Positions 43,776 through 52,224 of a stretch of 64,000 nucleotides of DNA are shown one piece after another (within the stretch, counting starts at the first letter, position 1; every line of letters starts with the position of its first letter). This stretch comes from Pseudoroseomonas cervicalis (GTDB lineage: Bacteria > Pseudomonadota > Alphaproteobacteria > Acetobacterales > Acetobacteraceae). A program made the position numbers and the translations under genes. Under the pieces are notes generated by a model. That model did not search any database and was not told where the DNA came from. It saw nothing but the letters and a program-made list of their open reading frames with translations. Location of the stretch: NCBI RefSeq assembly GCF_030818485.1, contig NZ_JAUTAJ010000004.1, forward strand, positions 558,001 through 622,000, in the 5' to 3' direction.

Positions 43776-44327
43776 CTAGCTGGCCAGCCGGCGGCGCTCC
43801 TCCAGCGAATGGCTGCGGTGGAATCGCGGCGCCGGCTGGCGCGTCGCATTCTCCTCCTCGAGCAGGGCGTAGAGGGCGGAGCGCGCCCGGTGCACCCGGC
43901 TCTTCACCGTGCCCACCGCGCAGCCCAGCACCTTCGCCACATCCTCGTAGGGCAGGCCGGAGCCGGCCACGAGGGTGAGGATCGAGCGGTGATCCTCCGG
44001 CAGGCGGTGGAAGATGCGCTGGAAATCGGACAGCTCCAGCCCCTCATCCTGGCGGGCGGAGACGGTGATGCGCTCCAGCTCGCTATCGTCCATCTCCCGC
44101 GTCAGCCGCCGCTTCGCCACGAATTCGTTGAGGAAGCGGTTGCGCAGGATGGTGAAGGCCCAGGCCTTGAAATTGGTTCCGGGCTGGAAGCGGTCGGCGG
44201 AATTGAGCATCCGCACCACGGCGTCCTGCACCAGGTCATCCGCATCATGCCGGTTGCGCGTCAGGGACCGGGCATAGGCGCGGAGATCGGGCAGGCAGGC
44301 GAGCAGTTCATCTTCGATCGGCGCCAT
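43776..44327 (-). CDS. EcfG-like RNA polymerase sigma factor (general stress response type)
   Basis: ECF sigma factor of 183 residues. Region 2 is DLRAYARSLTRNRHDADDLV plus FQPGTNFKAWAFTILRNRF. Region 4 is LPEDHRSILTLVAGSGLPYE plus VLGCAVGTVKSRVHRAR. These are hallmarks of the EcfG class, which drives the alphaproteobacterial general stress response. I start at ATG 44327 (MAPIEDELLAC). The ATG at 44351 would be almost leaderless given the promoter at 44362-44386. phyR and nepR, the usual partners, are not adjacent. The surrounding KGG, PRC-barrel and DUF2383 genes carry matching promoters. Confidence 0.88.
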   Translation of the reverse strand: MAPIEDELLACLPDLRAYARSLTRNRHDADDLVQDAVVRMLNSADRFQPGTNFKAWAFTILRNRFLNEFVAKRRLTREMDDSELERITVSARQDEGLELSDFQRIFHRLPEDHRSILTLVAGSGLPYEDVAKVLGCAVGTVKSRVHRARSALYALLEEENATRQPAPRFHRSHSLEERRRLAS

Positions 44328-44361
44328 TTTGACCTGATTTGCTGACTGCATTGCCGGTTCA

Positions 44362-44386
44362 AACGTGCCGCCGGAGGGGGAGTTGC
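44362..44386 (-). promoter_or_regulatory. EcfG-type promoter of the sigma factor gene (autoregulation)
   Basis: Minus-strand GCAAC (44382-44386), 16-base spacer, CGTT (44362-44365): one mismatch to GGAAC-N16-CGTT. Its position just before the gene suggests that the sigma factor activates itself. Confidence 0.55.
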
Positions 44387-44555
44387 GACCCGCCGGCCAC
44401 AGCGGGTGCGAAACGAAAGCGCGAAACCCCTCCACACGCGGATGTTAGGCGCACGTTAAGATGCTGCGCTGCGGCGACCCGATCGCGCCCGCCGGTGGTC
44501 GGCGGGCGGCGCCGCAGCCAGGGCGGCCGCGCCGCCCCAGCAGGAGAGTTCCCCC

Positions 44556-45473
44556 ATGTATCTCGACCGTCCCGTCGCCGCCCAGGACCTGCCCGCCAGC
44601 CGCCAGGGCAGCCTGCAGGCGCGATTCGACAATCTGTCCCTGCGGCTGGAGGAGCAAAGCCGCAGCCTCTGGTGCCACATGACCCCCGCCGGCAAGCCCA
44701 GCTACACCATGGCGCTGATGCGCGACGTGCACGCCATGCAGCACCATGTGGCGGCGCAGTTCTCGGCCAGCGCCACGCCGCCGGCCGATTGGTTCGTCAT
44801 GGCCTCCGCCGTGCCCGGCATCTACAATCTGGGCGGCGACCTGGCGCATTTCGCCGAGCGCATCCGCTCCCGCGACCACGAGTCGCTGGTGCGCTACGGC
44901 CATGTCGCGGTGGAGGCGATCCACCGCAACCACATCGCCTTCGGCCAGCCCATGGTGACGCTGGCCCTGGTGCAGGGCGACGCGCTGGGCGGCGGCTTCG
45001 AGCATGCGCTCTCCTTCGACATGATCGTGGCCGAGCGCAGCGCCAAGCTCGGCCTGCCGGAGGTGCTGTTCAACATGTTCCCCGGCATGGGCGCCTACAG
45101 CTTCCTCTCCCGCCGGATCGACCGGCGCCGGGCGGAGGCGCTGATCAGCTCGGGCCGCATCCACAGCGCCGAGGAGCTGCACGAGATGGGCGTGGTCGAC
45201 ATCCTGGCCGAGGATGGCGAGGGCGAGACGGTGGCGCGCGAATACATCGCCCGGCATGCCCGCAAGCACAACGCGCTGCTGACCATGCTGCGGGCGCGCC
45301 GCCGGGTCGACCCGGTCACGCTGGAGGAGCTGCGCGACGTGGTCGAGATGTGGGCCGCGGCGGCGATGAATCTGGGCGAGGCCGACCTGAAGAAGATGGA
45401 CCGGCTGGTGGCGGCGCAGGACCGGCGCCTGGCCGCCATGGGCTCGCCCGGCTACGCGACCGCGGCCGAATGA
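44556..45473 (+). CDS. rpfF: RpfF-type DSF synthase (crotonase family)
   Basis: 305-residue crotonase-fold enzyme matching RpfF, which makes diffusible signal factor (cis-2-unsaturated fatty acids) by dehydrating 3-hydroxyacyl-ACP and releasing the acid. Diagnostic stretches: VPGIYNLGGDLAHFAERIR (87-105), LVQGDALGGGFEHALS (138-153), GLPEVLFNMFPGMGAYSF (166-183). The two catalytic glutamates of Xanthomonas RpfF (E141, E161) correspond to E149 and E169, with the same 20-residue spacing. AMNLGEADLKKMDRLVAAQDRR at the C-terminus also matches. It starts at ATG 44556 behind CAGGAGAG. It is convergent with the RpfC-like kinase gene. Confidence 0.9.
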   Translation: MYLDRPVAAQDLPASRQGSLQARFDNLSLRLEEQSRSLWCHMTPAGKPSYTMALMRDVHAMQHHVAAQFSASATPPADWFVMASAVPGIYNLGGDLAHFAERIRSRDHESLVRYGHVAVEAIHRNHIAFGQPMVTLALVQGDALGGGFEHALSFDMIVAERSAKLGLPEVLFNMFPGMGAYSFLSRRIDRRRAEALISSGRIHSAEELHEMGVVDILAEDGEGETVAREYIARHARKHNALLTMLRARRRVDPVTLEELRDVVEMWAAAAMNLGEADLKKMDRLVAAQDRRLAAMGSPGYATAAE

Positions 45474-45485
45474 GCCGGCATCGCG

Positions 45486-45517
45486 CCGGCGCGCCGGGAC
45501 CCCTCCCGGCGCGCCGG
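45486..45517. terminator. GC hairpin between rpfF and the kinase gene
   Basis: Perfect 14-base stem (CCGGCGCGCCGGGA/TCCCGGCGCGCCGG) with a CCCC loop, 13 bases past the rpfF stop and between convergent genes. There is no T run. Confidence 0.5.
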
Positions 45518-45629
45518 TGGTTGTGGGGTTGCGGGCGGGCGCCGGCCGGGCCGGTGCCCGGCGGCGGGGAGGCGGGCGCGGCGGCACCGGGGGAGCCCGC
45601 CGCGACACCGTCGCCGCGCCGCGGCGGGC

Positions 45630-48224
45630 TCAGCCGCGATGGCTCTGCCCGTTGCTGGCGGGCAGCAGCGCCTGGCGCAGCCGCTCGAGCTCCGCCCGCG
45701 CGCGCAGCGCCAGATCGGCGCCCTCGCGCATCACCTCCTCGCGGCTCAGCTTGCGCCATTCGCCGCAGAGCCGGGTGATGCCGATGGCGCCGAGATTGGC
45801 GGCGCTGCTGCGCAGCGCATGCGCCTCGGCATGGAAGCGCGCCATGTCGCCCTGCAGCGCCGCCTGGCCGATCTCCTCGATCAGCCGGGCGGCGTCCTCG
45901 AGGAAGTCACGCGCCAGCTGCGCCAGGAAATCCTCGCCGCCCAGGCGGCGCAGATTCTCCACCGTCTCCCCGTCCAGCGCCGGGCCGCTGGCGCGGAAGC
46001 GGGGGTGGGAGGCGATCTCGGCCACCGCCGGGGCCAGGGCGGTGCCGGGGCGCGGCGGGCGCGCCTTCTCCTCGACCACGCGCAGCAGCGTCTCGGCCTC
46101 GATCGGCTTGACCAGATAGCCATCCATGCCGGCCTCCCGGCAGCTCCGCTCGGCCGTCTCGGTGGCGTCCGCCGTCAGCGCCAGGATCGGCAGATGCGGC
46201 TGGCCCAGCGCCATGACGCGGAACAGCTTGGTGGCCTCCAGCCCGTCCATCTCGGGCATGTTCAGGTCCATCAGCACCAGGTCGAGCCGCTCCGCCTCGC
46301 GCTCCAGCACGTCGAGGGCGATGTCGCCATTGTCGGCCAGCAGCACCTCATGCCCGCCGCGCTCCAGGATGCGGGCGAAGACGCGCTGGTTGACCCGGCT
46401 GTCATCGGCCACCAGCACCCGCAGCCGGCGGGAGGGCGCGGGCGGCGGCAGGGCGGGCTGGGCATCCGCCGCCGGCGCGTCGCTCTCGGCCGCGGCCGGT
46501 GCCGCCGCCGCTAGCGCGGCGGCGTTGTGCAGCGCATTGGCGATGGTCGCGTCGTCGGAGGCGGGCGGCAGCAGCGCGACGCAGGCCTGGCGCAGCGCCT
46601 CCTCCGGCAGGCCCTCCACCGGCTCGGCGGCGATCAGCAGGCGCGGATGCCGGGCATGCTCCTCCGGCGGCAGCGCCGCGCCGGCATAGGCCAGCAGCAG
46701 GCAGCGCCCCTCCGGCCCCTCGGGCCGGGCGCGCAGCAGCCGCAGCGCCTCGGCCGCATCGGCCGCCGGCCGCGCCTCGACGCCGAGCCCGGCCAGCCGC
46801 TCGGCCAGCGCCGCGGCGCGGATCGGCGCCGGGTCCAGCAGCACCACGGCGAGGCCCGCCAGCGCCGCCGGCGCCGCCTCGGCCGGCGCCACCGGCACCT
46901 CGAAATGGAAGGTGGCGCCCTCGCCGGGGGCGGAGCGCACGCCGATCGTGCCGCCCATCAGCTGCACCAGGCGGCGGCAGATGGCCAGCCCCAGCCCGGT
47001 GCCGCCGAAGCGGTTGATGATGCTGGAATCGGCCTGGGTGAAGGTCTCGAAGATGCGCTCCTGCGCCTCGGGCGCGATGCCGATGCCGCTGTCCGAGACC
47101 TCGGCGCGGAGCCTGAGCCCGCCGCCCGGCTGCGGCACGGCGTCCAGCGCCACCGTCACCCCGCCCTCGGCGGTGAATTTCACCGCATTGCCGGCCAGGT
47201 TCAGCAGCACATCCAGCAGATGCCGCCGGTCGCCGCGCAGCATGGCCGGGATGCGCGGCGTCAGATGCAGGGAGAAGCGCAGCCCCTTGTCGCGGCTCTG
47301 CGCCGCCAGCAGGGCGCGCAGCTCGGCCAGCAGGGCGGCGGGGGCGAATTCCACCTGCTCGGAGGGCATGCGCCCCGCCTCGATGCGCGACAGGTTCAGG
47401 ATGTCGTCGATCAGCGACAGCAGCGAGCGGGCGGCGCTGTCGACGGTGGCGAGCATCTCGCGCTGCTCGCCATCCAGCTTCGTGCCGCGCAGCAGCCCGC
47501 CCATGCCGATGATGGCGTTCAGCGGCGTGCGCAGCTCGTGGCTGACGCTGGCCAGGAACAGGGATTTGGCGCTGCTCGCCGCCTCGGCCTGCTGCTTGGC
47601 CTGGGACAGCTTGCGGATCAGCGTGCCGGCATAGAGCGGCAGGATCAGCAGCCCGACCCAGAGGCCGATGCCCAGATGCAGCTGCTCCTGCCAGAAGGGG
47701 GTGGCCAGCACCACCGCGCCGAAGCCGGCCAGCGCCCCCAGCATGGCGATGCGCAGCCAGGCCAGGCCGAAGCGGAAGCCATTGCCGAACACCACCCAGA
47801 GATAGACCGGCCAGAACATGGCCACGGCCTCGCCGCCCCAGTGCAGCTGCAGCGAGAGGAAGCCGCAATCCAGCAGCACCGCGGCCAGGCGCCGCGCCCG
47901 GTTGCTGGCGGGGAAGGCGATGATGTGCGCCAGCACGCCGATCGCCAGCAGGAAGAAGGCCGCCATGCCGGCCAGCGCCAGGCCGGGGCCGCCGCTGGCC
48001 CAGACCACCAGCAGGATGATGCCGCCGAAGACCAGGCGGTTCAGGCTCATCTCGTGCTCGCTGTCGGGGCGGGCGCGCAGCCGCGCCAGCAGCGGGCCGA
48101 ACAGCCGCGCCGCCAGGCCGCGCGCGCCGCGCGGCGGCGGCGCGGCCGGGGGCGCCGCGCCTGGCATGGCGGCCCCCGGCGCGGGCGGCGGGAGGGGCGG
48201 CGGCGCGGTCCGGGTCCAGGGCAT
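45630..48224 (-). CDS. RpfC-like hybrid sensor histidine kinase
   Basis: 864-residue DSF-sensor-type kinase. A proline-rich start leads to [18 protein letters not shown] (51-68), equivalent to the RADSEH motif just before the first TM of RpfC. Five TM segments span about 63-200. HisKA has [13 protein letters not shown] with H229; the ATPase has NLAGNAVKF (342-350) and [14 protein letters not shown] degenerate receiver without an acceptor Asp covers about 455-575. A true receiver has [11 protein letters not shown] (D653). The C-terminal Hpt has [10 protein letters not shown] (H802). Apart from the extra degenerate receiver this is the RpfC layout. It lies 11 bases downstream of the GGDEF-EAL gene. 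Confidence 0.85.
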
Positions 48225-48235
48225 GGCGGTCTCCC

Positions 48236-50608
48236 TCAGCCCTGGTCGGGGCGGTGATGGGCGGGCCCGCCGGCGCGCCGCGCCGCGCCGCCGCCCGGCG
48301 CGGCCTGCGCCTCGCCGGCGCCGCCGGCCTCGCGCGCCGTGTCGCGCTGCGCGTCCCGCGCCGTGTCGCGATGCGCTTCCCGCGCCGTGTCGCGATGCGC
48401 TTCCCGCGCCGTGTCGCGATGCGCCTCCCGCGCGGTGTCGCGCTGGGCGCGCGGCCGCGCCTCCTTCTGCCGCAGCAGCCGGGCGAAGCCCTCGGCCGGC
48501 AGCGCCTCGCTGAAATAGAAGCCCTGCACCTCGTCGCAGCCCTCGGCGCGCAGCCGGGCCAGCTGCGCCTCGGTCTCCACCCCCTCCGCCACCACCTGCA
48601 GCCGCAGCATGTGGCCGAGATCGACGATGGTGCGCACGATGGCGGCGTCGTTCGGCTCGCTGGTCATGCCGCGCACGAAGGACTGGTCGATCTTCAGCCG
48701 GTCGATCGGGAAGTTCTTCACATAGTTCAGCGAGGAATAGCCGGTGCCGAAATCATCGACCGAGATGCGCACGCCGAGCGCGCGCAGCGCCTGCAGGCCG
48801 GAGGCGGTGGCGGCGTCCTGCTCCATCAGGATGCCCTCGGTCAGCTCCAGGTCGAGCCGGTCCGGCGCCAGCCCGGTCTCGCGCAGCACCTCGGCCACCA
48901 GCGCCCGCACATCCTGGCGGCGGAACTGCACCGGGGAGAGGTTGACGCTGATGCGCACCGGCGGCAGCCCCTCCGCCGCCCAGGCGGCGGCCTGGCGGCA
49001 GGCCTCGCGCAGCACCCATTCATTGATCGGCACGATCAGCCCGGTCTCCTCGGCGATCGCCAGGAAGGTGCCGGGGCCCGACAGCCCATGCCCGTTGCGG
49101 CGCCAGCGCAGCAGCGCCTCCGCCCCGGTGACGCGGTTGCCGCGCAGGTCGATCTGCGGCTGGTAGTGCAGCTCGAACTCGCCGCGGCCGAGGGCGGCGC
49201 GCAGCTCGGCCTCGATCTGCATCGCCTCGCGCGCGCGGGCATCCATGGCGGCGGCGAAGAAGCGCCAGCCATGCCGCCCCTCCGCCTTGGCGCGGTACAT
49301 GGCGAGGTCGGCATTGCGCAGCAGCTCGTCCGGGTCGGCGCCGTCGCGCGGCGAGAGGGTGATGCCGATGCTGGCCGCCGCCGACAGGCTGTGGCCGTCG
49401 GAGAAGACCGGCTCGCCCAGCGCCGCCATGATGCGGCCGGCGAGCTCGGCGGCCTCGTCCGGGCCCTGGATGGCGGTCTGCACGATGGCGAATTCATCGC
49501 CGCCGAGCCGGGCGACCAGGTCCTCGGCCCGCGCCGTCATCTTCAGCCGCTGCGCGACGGTGCGCAGCAGCGCGTCGCCGACATGGTGGCCGAGCGCGTC
49601 ATTCACCGCCTTGAAGCGGTCGAGGTCGAGGAACAGCAGGGCGAAGGCATGGTCGCCGCGGCGGCCGCGCGCCAGCTCGCGGCGCAGCCGGTCGCGCAGG
49701 AAGGCGCGGTTGGGCAGGCCGGTCAGCGCGTCGTGATGCGCCATATGGCCGAGCCGGCGCTCGGCCAGCTTGCGGTCGGTGATCTCGAGCGAGGTGGTCA
49801 GCACCGCCACCACCTCGCCGCGGCCATTGTGCAGCGGCGCCTTGGTGGTGGAGAAGATGCGCGGCTGCCCGTCCGGCCCCTGGGTCTCCTCCTCCCGCCC
49901 CGGCAGCGGCTGGCCGGTCTCGAACACCAGCTGGTCGAGGGCGCGGGAGCGCGCGGCGCGCTCGCGGCTGAACAGCTGCTCGACCGGCTGGCCGGCCAGG
50001 GCGTCGGGGGTGGTGCCGGCGAAATCCGCCTGGGCGGCGTTGACGAAGACGCAGCGGCCCTGCCGGTCGGCGGCGCTGATCATGGCCGGCACGGTGTCGA
50101 TCACCTGGGCGAGCGCCGCCCGGCTGTCGCGCAGCATCTCCTCCCGCGCGCGGGTGCTGTGTTGCAGCGCCTGCTCCAGCGATTCGGCGCGGCGCTGGAT
50201 CACCTGCTGCTGCCAGCGCATGCGCAGCAGGTTGCGGGCCCGGGTGAGGAATTCGTAATGGTCGACCGGGCTCAGCAGGAAGTCGGTGGCGCCGGCCTCC
50301 AGCGCCCGCATCCGGTAGGCGCGGTCATTATAGGCGGTGATGACGATGACCGGCGCATCCGCCGCCCCCGGCGCGCCGCCCTGGGGCGGGGGCAGGGCGC
50401 GCAGCCGGCGGGTGAACTCGGCCCCGTCCATGCCGGGCATGCGGAAATCGGTCACCACCAGGTCGGCCTCGTGGCCGGCCAGCCAGTCCAGCGCCGCCTG
50501 CGGGTCGCCGAAGGCCTCGACATGCACGTCGCGCTCCAGCGACAGCGCCAGGCGGCTGAAGATGTCGCGGTTCGTGGTCCTGTCGTCCAGGATCAGGATG
50601 GTGGCCAT
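48236..50608 (-). CDS. response regulator with PAS, GGDEF and EAL domains (cyclic-di-GMP turnover)
   Basis: 790-residue cytoplasmic protein. Receiver at 1-125 (DD at 8-9; acceptor D54 in [12 protein letters not shown]). PAS at about 163-285. Diguanylate cyclase with intact GGDEF (369-373 in [10 protein letters not shown]). Phosphodiesterase with intact EAL (497-499 in TGAEALLRW) and [10 protein letters not shown]. Both catalytic signatures are kept, so it may make or degrade c-di-GMP. It is the upstream partner of the RpfC-like kinase and occupies the place of RpfG, which in Xanthomonas is a REC-HD-GYP protein. The C-terminus (721-761) carries five copies of an eight-residue repeat. A start at ATG 50608 suits the receiver N-terminus. 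Confidence 0.93.
48327..48446 (-). repeat. five 24-base tandem repeats inside the GGDEF-EAL gene
   Basis: Five in-frame 24-base units encode [16 protein letters not shown]. The invariant core GTGTCGCG recurs at 48339, 48363, 48387, 48411 and 48435, exactly 24 bases apart. The middle units are nearly identical in DNA, which suggests recent slippage. The peptide is charged, helical and likely a flexible tail. Confidence 0.92.
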
Positions 50609-50787: not shown

Positions 50788-51531
50788 ATGCTCGACCTGT
50801 ATTACTGGACCACGCCGAACGGCCACAAGGTTACCATGCTGCTCGAGGAAGCGGGGCTGCCATACCGCCTGGTCCCGGTGAACATCGGTAAGGGCGAGCA
50901 GTTCCATCCCGATTTCCTCGCCATCGCCCCCAACAACCGCATCCCGGCCCTGGTCGACCATGCCCCGGCCGGCGGGGGCGCCCCTGTCTCGCTGTTCGAG
51001 AGCGGGGCGATCCTGCTCTATCTGGCGGACAAGATCGGCCGTTTCATCCCGTCCCCGGCGGAGGTTGCCGCGCGGGCCGAGGTGCTGCAATGGCTGTTCT
51101 GGCAGATGGGGGGGCTCGGCCCCATGGCCGGGCAGAACCACCATTTCTCCCAGTATGCGCCGGAGAAGATCCCCTACGCCATCGACCGCTATGTGCGGGA
51201 GACCAACCGCCTCTATGGCGTGCTGGACCGCCGGCTGAAGGGGCGCGACTTCGTCGCCGGGCCGGACTACTCCATCGCCGACATGGCGATCTATCCCTGG
51301 ATCGTGCCCTATGCGCGGCAGGGCCAGAATCTGGAGGATTTCCCCGAGCTCGCCCGCTGGTTCAGCGCCATCCAGGCGCGGCCGGCGACGCTCGCCGCCT
51401 ATGCCCGCGCCGCCGAGATCAACCCGACCAGCGCCGCGACGGTGAACGAGCAGTCCCGCGCCATCCTGTTCGGCCAGACCGCAAACAGCGTCGCCATCGG
51501 CGAGGCCGCCTCCGCCGCGGCGAAGGGCTGA
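50788..51531 (+). CDS. glutathione S-transferase, YfcG/YghU-like
   Basis: 247-residue GST. The N-terminal thioredoxin-like domain has YYWTTPNGHKVTMLLEE (5-21) and the GSH-binding NNRIPALVD and LFESGAILLYLA. The C-terminal helical domain has WLFWQMGGLGPMAGQNHHF, characteristic of the Nu-class YfcG/YghU enzymes, which act as GSH-dependent disulfide reductases. The start at ATG 50788 follows AGGAGG. It is followed three bases later by a second GST gene. Confidence 0.92.
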   Translation: MLDLYYWTTPNGHKVTMLLEEAGLPYRLVPVNIGKGEQFHPDFLAIAPNNRIPALVDHAPAGGGAPVSLFESGAILLYLADKIGRFIPSPAEVAARAEVLQWLFWQMGGLGPMAGQNHHFSQYAPEKIPYAIDRYVRETNRLYGVLDRRLKGRDFVAGPDYSIADMAIYPWIVPYARQGQNLEDFPELARWFSAIQARPATLAAYARAAEINPTSAATVNEQSRAILFGQTANSVAIGEAASAAAKG

Positions 51532-51534
51532 GCC

Positions 51535-52224
51535 GTGGCGCGCCGCCTCTACGAGCTGGCGGGGCAGGACCCCGACCGGCGCTTCAGCCCCTATTGCTGG
51601 CGCATCCGCATGGCGCTGGCGCATAAGGGGCTGGAGGTCGAGTGCCTGCCCTGGCGCTTCACCGAGGGCGCGGCCCTGGCCTTCTCCGGCCAGGACAAGG
51701 TGCCGGTGCTGGTCGATGGCGAGCGCGTGATCGCCGATTCCTGGGCCATCGCCGCCTATCTGGAGGCCGCCTATCCGGAGCGCCCAGCGCTGTTCGCCGG
51801 CGGCGATGCCCGCCCCGCCCGCTTCCTGACCGCCTGGGCCGACACGGTGCTGAATGCCGGGCTGGCGCGGCTGATCGTCAGCGACATTCCGCGCTGGCTG
51901 ACGCCCGAGCAGGCCGCCTATTTCCGCCAGAGCCGCGAGGCGCGCTTCGGCATGAGCCTGGAGGCGCTGACCGATGGGCGGGAGGCGCGGCTGCCCGCCT
52001 TCCGCGCCAGCATGGCGCCGCTGCGCCTGGTGCTGCGCGAGCAGCCCTTCCTGGGCGGGGCTGGGCCCGACTATGGCGACTACGCCGTGTTCGGCAGCCT
52101 GCAATGGGCGCGCTGCGTCTCCGAGCTCAGCCTGTTCGAGCATGGCGACCCGGTCATCGCCTGGCGCGAGCGCATGCTGGACCTGTTCGGCGGGCTGGCG
52201 CGCGCGGCGCCGCATTGCGGCTAG
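51535..52224 (+). CDS. glutathione S-transferase family protein (LigE/beta-etherase-like)
   Basis: 229-residue GST-fold protein starting at GTG 51535, directly after the previous GST. The N-terminal domain reads RFSPYCWRIRMALAHKGLEV, with a catalytic-site Ser-Pro-Tyr, then KVPVLVDGERVIADSWAIAAYLE. The C-terminal half includes DYGDYAVFGSLQWAR. The order of these motifs is closest to the LigE-like branch of GSTs. The substrate is unknown, and involvement in lignin-ether cleavage should not be assumed. Confidence 0.85.
   Translation: MARRLYELAGQDPDRRFSPYCWRIRMALAHKGLEVECLPWRFTEGAALAFSGQDKVPVLVDGERVIADSWAIAAYLEAAYPERPALFAGGDARPARFLTAWADTVLNAGLARLIVSDIPRWLTPEQAAYFRQSREARFGMSLEALTDGREARLPAFRASMAPLRLVLREQPFLGGAGPDYGDYAVFGSLQWARCVSELSLFEHGDPVIAWRERMLDLFGGLARAAPHCG

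Follow-up and report, generated by a model that had tools for sequence, protein, structure and literature searches.

What does a diffusible signal factor (DSF) quorum-sensing locus control when its RpfC-type kinase is paired not with RpfG but with a response regulator of different output? This question is raised by a stretch of 64,000 nucleotides from Pseudoroseomonas cervicalis (contig NZ_JAUTAJ010000004.1, positions 558,001 to 622,000), the whole of which we call the window, and in which three open reading frames were found at positions 44556-50608: a gene of RpfF type, a gene of RpfC type and a gene here named R. The putative DSF synthase RpfF (44556..45473, plus strand, 305 aa) is encoded convergently with the RpfC-type hybrid histidine kinase (45630..48224, minus strand, 864 aa) and separated from it by 156 nt, whilst R (48236..50608, minus strand, 790 aa) is the first gene of an operon with RpfC, sharing its strand with only 11 nt between the R stop and the RpfC start. 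An earlier note on this DNA had proposed a DSF module in which a REC-PAS-GGDEF-EAL protein replaces RpfG. We give a probability of roughly 0.75 to the reading, drawn from sequence, that the three genes make up a DSF-type quorum-sensing circuit with no part missing, which runs from RpfF through RpfC to R and belongs to an alphaproteobacterial lineage.

R has the receiver of RpfG

R comprises a receiver (residues 1-123, 50240..50608; Pfam Response_reg, 4-123) with the phosphoacceptor D54, a PAS domain (residues 166-280, 49769..50113; Pfam PAS_4 and PAS), a GGDEF domain (residues 290-445, 49274..49741) and an EAL domain (residues 467-701, 48506..49210), all on the minus strand. A thorough phylogeny was computed for 62 receivers, 20 of them neither R nor RpfG and drawn from lower-scoring matches. 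The receivers of R and RpfG join in a single clade apart from these 20 (97/92), and each of the two types forms a clade of its own (RpfG 98/92; R 98/90). With the window receiver as query against 17 genomes, RpfG was the top match in all eight that bear it, with bit scores of 101 against 49 for the next match (G482) and 93 against 47 (G499); the place of the top match agrees with the fetched loci in seven of the eight genomes, the remaining one (G292) having been judged by frame length and position. Thus R is a homologue of RpfG by its receiver, with a different output, and the replacement claimed by the earlier note stands. No RpfG was found in the organism's own genome, where the one HD-GYP match lies in a frame of 271 aa whose part upstream of the HD domain is too short to accommodate a receiver, and tblastn (1e-6) detected no second match to the RpfC sensor domain; this agrees with the expectation that no RpfG-type gene is paired with another RpfC elsewhere in the genome.

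The earlier note described the domains of R correctly but overlooked a change within the receiver. The lysine of strand beta-5, which in CheY-like receivers touches the phosphoryl group and links phosphorylation to switching, is Ser113 in the window protein (codon 50270..50272, minus strand). In three partly overlapping sets of R receivers this lysine is absent throughout (0/55, 0/80 and 0/19, the 80 being the best 80 of 533 relatives), the position being occupied mostly by Ser and otherwise by Thr, Ala, Met or Tyr, in contrast to its presence in 7/7 RpfGs and 20/20 other receivers. Residues D8, D9, D54 and T91 are retained in every member of the same sets (55/55, 80/80 and 19/19), suggesting that phosphorylation is still under selection. 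Given the role of the lysine, R would be expected to take phosphate but to signal differently; a search of the open-licence PubMed Central (PMC) literature returned nothing on the effect of losing it.

As to the output, the checked GGDEF and EAL residues of R, including the catalytic residues of the latter, are intact, as had been claimed, and the RxxD motif of the I-site is present as RAED. The nearest PDB chain to the EAL domain by sequence is 4rnh, a GGDEF-EAL motility regulator. Amongst 47 long R proteins the checked EAL residues are invariant save for Ala to Ser at one site in three proteins, GGDEF is complete in 45, and the Arg and Asp of the I-site are found in 28 and 38 respectively. 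R should change cyclic di-GMP (c-di-GMP) in this genome and could move it in either direction; the net direction is not readable from the sequence, and by analogy with RpfG and RpfR we lean towards net degradation at high density. Beyond the EAL domain lies a repetitive C-terminal tail, encoded in part by a 24-bp tandem repeat (48327..48449, minus strand; 4.9 copies, 92% matches).

The predicted synthase and its sensor kinase

The RpfF protein contains the Pfam domain ECH_1 and scores 371.8 bits against PRK08788 (cut-off 177). Its top PDB match is X. campestris RpfF (3m6m, 3e-53), and the top four matches are all RpfF or RpfF-like chains (3e-53 to 6.3e-53), the fifth reaching only 1.9e-14. The predicted catalytic residues of the protein, E149 and E169, correspond in the alignment to the catalytic pair E141 and E161 of 3m6m, with a 16-residue offset between the alignment and the chain numbering that was inferred from chain length, and both positions are Glu in 72/72 aligned sequences (73 were extracted, one of ≤200 residues being dropped). 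In a quick tree of 59 rows, with support from the approximate likelihood ratio test (SH-aLRT) only, seven crotonases from the same genome separate at 100, and the window protein is placed amongst RpfFs linked to RpfC. Both catalytic glutamates, together with a position apart from ordinary enoyl-CoA hydratases, thus bear out what had been proposed for this gene. The closest RpfF in a protein search is 92% identical and is named Pseudoroseomonas cervicalis, which makes a Roseomonas-like bacterium of the Acetobacteraceae, taken broadly, the probable host. From family and residues, we infer an RpfF-type crotonase that produces a cis-2-unsaturated fatty acid.

RpfC consists of a transmembrane sensor followed by the Pfam domains HisKA, HATPase_c, Response_reg and Hpt, with the key residues H229, D653, K706 and H802 all present. 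The ARPDSEHE motif spans residues 51-58, and residues 52-59 (RPDSEHEM, 48048..48071, minus strand) align with the DSF-sensing residues of X. campestris RpfC, of which R15, D17, S18, E19 and Q22 matter for sensing according to the available text of PMC5391125. The window protein retains the equivalents of the first four, whilst Q22 is replaced by Met. In tblastn its sensor part hits RpfC in loci that carry RpfG (97 bits, L096). The motif and domains described by the earlier note are all in place; the five transmembrane helices that it counted are plausible, with four segments passing the hydropathy threshold in the window protein and, amongst five homologues scanned, five segments in two (L045, L100), four in another two and three in one.

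A constant REC-PAS core with varying outputs

We searched 200 genomes of the family with RpfF, the RpfC sensor domain and the R receiver-PAS region as queries, and obtained matches in 52, 53 and 55 genomes respectively: all three were found in 49 and none in 142, RpfC was accompanied by R in every case, and RpfC with R but no RpfF was seen in four. In 240 genomes spread across the Alphaproteobacteria the corresponding numbers were 17, 17 and 18, with all three in 16 and none in 221, and RpfC was again never without R. Fisher values overstate this co-occurrence because related genomes are not independent, the class sample with its one to two hits per family code being the fairer; co-occurrence by chance can nevertheless be excluded, and the trio is conserved in relatives, as the earlier note had expected. 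Of the 58 loci from the family and the window in which R or RpfC is present, 47 have R at most 3.5 kb upstream of RpfC and in the same orientation; in one of the other 11 the two genes diverge, and in the remaining ten only R or only RpfC occurs on the stretch. Where both RpfF and RpfC are present (36 loci), RpfF is convergent in 30, on the same strand in three and divergent in three.

The output of R is far less constant. A named scan with a receiver-PAS alignment yielded 533 relatives, of which the best 80 were analysed: tblastn detected both GGDEF and EAL parts in 65 (both motifs whole in 60), GGDEF only in one and neither in 14, these last comprising 11 with a HisKA motif, two with REC-PAS only and one other. 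Of the 15 odd relatives, seven were analysed with Pfam: five carry HisKA-HATPase, L206 has GAF-PAS and L220 has GGDEF. The eight variants of differing output to which Pfam was applied all contain PAS, including one that ends after PAS. Within these best 80, RpfC lies at most 4.5 kb downstream of R in 68, and 54 of those stretches also include RpfF; several of the 12 loci without a nearby RpfC are on short contigs, which does not apply to at least L199, L208 and L211. Within the family, at least seven R proteins are REC-PAS only, and seven rows of this kind form a clade in the receiver tree (100/99).

Trio loci with GGDEF-EAL were identified in Acetobacteraceae, Roseomonadaceae, Acidocellaceae, Kaistiaceae and Xanthobacteraceae, amongst other families, and further in Methylobacteriaceae, Methylopilaceae, Stappiaceae, Rhizobiaceae and Rhodospirillaceae (names as given in the records). 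Environmental type strains with the trio include Kaistia soli (L165), Methylopila turkensis (L161) and Ancylobacter sonchi (L179), and Denitrobaculum tricleocarpae (L225) has a REC-PAS-histidine kinase form. Amongst the genomes sampled across the class, with the window's genome excluded, R carries a HisKA motif in 15/17 genomes (judged by motif only, without Pfam) and GGDEF-EAL in 2/17, both from one family; the R scored was the one next to RpfC or, in one genome, the sole R, and an additional R-like gene lies elsewhere in two of the genomes. In a hand-picked phylum survey (20 loci from 20 of 62 matching genomes), REC-HD-GYP adjoins RpfC and RpfF in 7/20 loci, all outside the Alphaproteobacteria (Pfam on L096), and the REC-PAS-GGDEF-EAL form occurs in the alphaproteobacterial loci L107, L108 and L112. 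The RpfF/RpfC/R arrangement is class-wide and not confined to the Acetobacteraceae: a rewired output in that family, as first proposed, is correct in that RpfG is replaced, but too narrow, since R often has a histidine kinase as its output. Thus the REC-PAS core is constant and the output varies by lineage between GGDEF-EAL, a histidine kinase or nothing more. A quick tree was made of 90 RpfC rows, 86 of them different. One side of it, supported at 100, consists of 58 rows whose partner is of the GGDEF-EAL, REC-PAS or GAF-PAS type, and the six output labels require five changes, the minimum possible, against a mean of 32 when shuffled: the type of output goes with the lineage of the kinase, save for the GGDEF-EAL rows L248 and L249, which lie on the side of the histidine kinase and HD-GYP types.

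Several further observations were made. In the RpfC tree the Kaistia and Ancylobacter systems (L165, L179, L188) group with Acidocella L183 (and L177) at 100, and in the R tree L165, L179 and L183 are together at 99, suggesting transfer between orders. Records titled Mycobacterium, Terriglobia and Burkholderiales (L169, L212 and L189) hold loci of alphaproteobacterial type and are probably mislabelled or contaminated; the RpfC of L212 is identical over the tree columns to that of the family genome L123. Amongst the phylum loci, L102 and L103 (small genomes, one family) have RpfF-RpfC pairs without an adjacent RpfG or R, and at L106:8199-11125 the gene immediately after RpfF encodes a MerR-PAS-GGDEF-EAL protein, in which an RpfR-like body is joined to a DNA-binding head. 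At L110:6012-9425 and L113:8237-11555 an alphaproteobacterial RpfF stands beside PAS_7-GGDEF-EAL proteins of about 800 aa, in which Pfam identified no receiver, with no RpfC sensor match on either stretch. In the window itself, two adjacent glutathione S-transferase genes (50788-52224) are divergent from the R-RpfC operon, and a frame next to RpfF (43776-44435) resembles, as judged by eye, an extracytoplasmic function (ECF)-type sigma factor.

How the circuit may work, and what else it could be

In the favoured circuit, RpfF would make a cis-2-unsaturated fatty acid that RpfC would sense via its N-terminal motif and membrane domain; phosphate would then pass from HisKA via REC and Hpt to D54 of R, which, with the receiver it shares with RpfG and its PAS domain, would act through GGDEF-EAL on c-di-GMP. 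Because the receiver lysine is Ser, an altered switch involving PAS and the long REC-PAS helix is probable.

A number of results weigh against such a circuit. The exchange of Lys for Ser in R speaks against a plain RpfG-like switch. In an alignment of RpfC with 54 alphaproteobacterial rows, including the window, and nine rows from other proteobacteria, the former keep Arg15 in 24/54, Asp17 in 30/54 and Ser18 in 12/54, and position 22 is Met in 37, Ile in 15, Thr in one and Gln in one; Glu19 is found in 51/54, and the other proteobacteria show Glu19 and Gln22 in 9/9 each. Since the motif is degenerate in many members, recognition of the same molecule cannot be taken for granted, and given the replacement of Q22 the ligand may differ from X. 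campestris DSF. RpfF misses the NCBIfam RpfF equivalog NF053515 (209 bits, cut-off 550), a cut-off reached in just 3/398 proteobacterial genomes of the phylum sample; the RpfG-linked RpfFs of loci L098-L100 likewise remain below it. In the family census R occurs alone in 2/200 genomes and RpfF without RpfC or R in 3/200: in G188 the RpfC kinase part runs off the contig and in G114 the contig is 3.5 kb, whilst G143, with two RpfF genes (L067, L086) and RpfC sensor and R below the thresholds used, seems a true exception. Finally, the stretches of L195, L199, L208, L211 and L220 hold R without an RpfC match or an RpfF match above 90 bits.

R may instead have another role. As a non-switching adaptor, its receiver would dock RpfC and titrate RpfC or RpfF, the output being constitutive or set by PAS; lysine is missing from all three receiver sets and the REC-PAS-only members form a clade of their own, as such a role would allow, but the universal retention of D8, D9, D54 and T91 suggests selected phosphorylation, and we consider this explanation doubtful. 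A little less probable is that R is a receptor of RpfR type, whose PAS domain binds the signal directly whilst RpfC serves as a second, parallel sensor. PAS is retained in every output variant scanned, even with nothing after it, RpfR-like PAS-GGDEF-EAL proteins adjoin RpfF in L114 and L115, and in L047 and L049 R is next to RpfF with RpfC on a different contig. However, the window PAS has no tblastn match in L114 or L115 at 1e-4, R bears a receiver where RpfR bears an FI domain (PMC6361424, in the part available), and R is present in 53/53 family and 17/17 class genomes with an RpfC match. An ordinary enoyl-CoA hydratase beside an unrelated two-component pair is highly improbable: the NCBIfam family whose cut-off the protein passes is named merely 'crotonase/enoyl-CoA hydratase family protein', but the PDB matches and the tree put it with RpfF, and it co-occurs with RpfC and R across the class.

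The favoured RpfF-RpfC-R circuit can be compared with known systems, as described in the accessible portions of the papers cited. With xanthomonad RpfF/RpfC/RpfG (PMC4504480) it shares RpfF, the RpfC layout, convergent genes and a homologous receiver in the third component; unlike the HD-GYP of RpfG, R has PAS-GGDEF-EAL, PAS with a histidine kinase or PAS alone, and the receiver lysine and RpfC Q22 are replaced. As in the RpfF/RpfR systems of Burkholderia and Cronobacter (PMC6361424, PMC4504480), a PAS-GGDEF-EAL protein with an output in c-di-GMP, predicted in our case, stands beside RpfF, although RpfR has its N-terminal FI domain and, in these papers, no RpfC partner, whereas R has a receiver and accompanies every RpfC match in both censuses. 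X. campestris RpfS, a DSF-sensing PAS_4 kinase (PMC4504480), has a PAS domain of the same class, and histidine kinase variants of R also couple PAS_4 and HisKA; in the sections of that paper at hand, RpfS is given neither a receiver nor a place in the rpfF-rpfC cluster. A review of May 2026 (PMC13220807) lists, in the text accessed, two DSF modes, RpfC/RpfG and RpfR. Amongst the matches listed from the open-licence PMC literature, a scope outside which subscription papers and preprints lie, the text returned held no description of REC-PAS-GGDEF-EAL or REC-PAS-histidine kinase proteins with RpfC, and the main text of PMC9756655 contains 0 occurrences of rpf or DSF.

A broader proposal is tentative and stands at less than even odds: that Alphaproteobacteria have a third DSF class, in which RpfC and a lysine-less REC-PAS core would serve lineage-specific outputs, DSF would not be tied to c-di-GMP breakdown, the relay would be independent of the lysine and PAS would possibly be a second fatty-acid sensor. 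As we read them, the loci show a third widespread DSF mode beyond RpfC/RpfG and RpfR, with an RpfG-type receiver and interchangeable outputs. They provide naturally occurring receivers that lack the switch lysine and for which gene linkage identifies the partner kinase, and a test case for the re-plumbing of a quorum signal, in which one sensor lineage leads either to a second kinase or to a phosphodiesterase, alone or joined to a cyclase.

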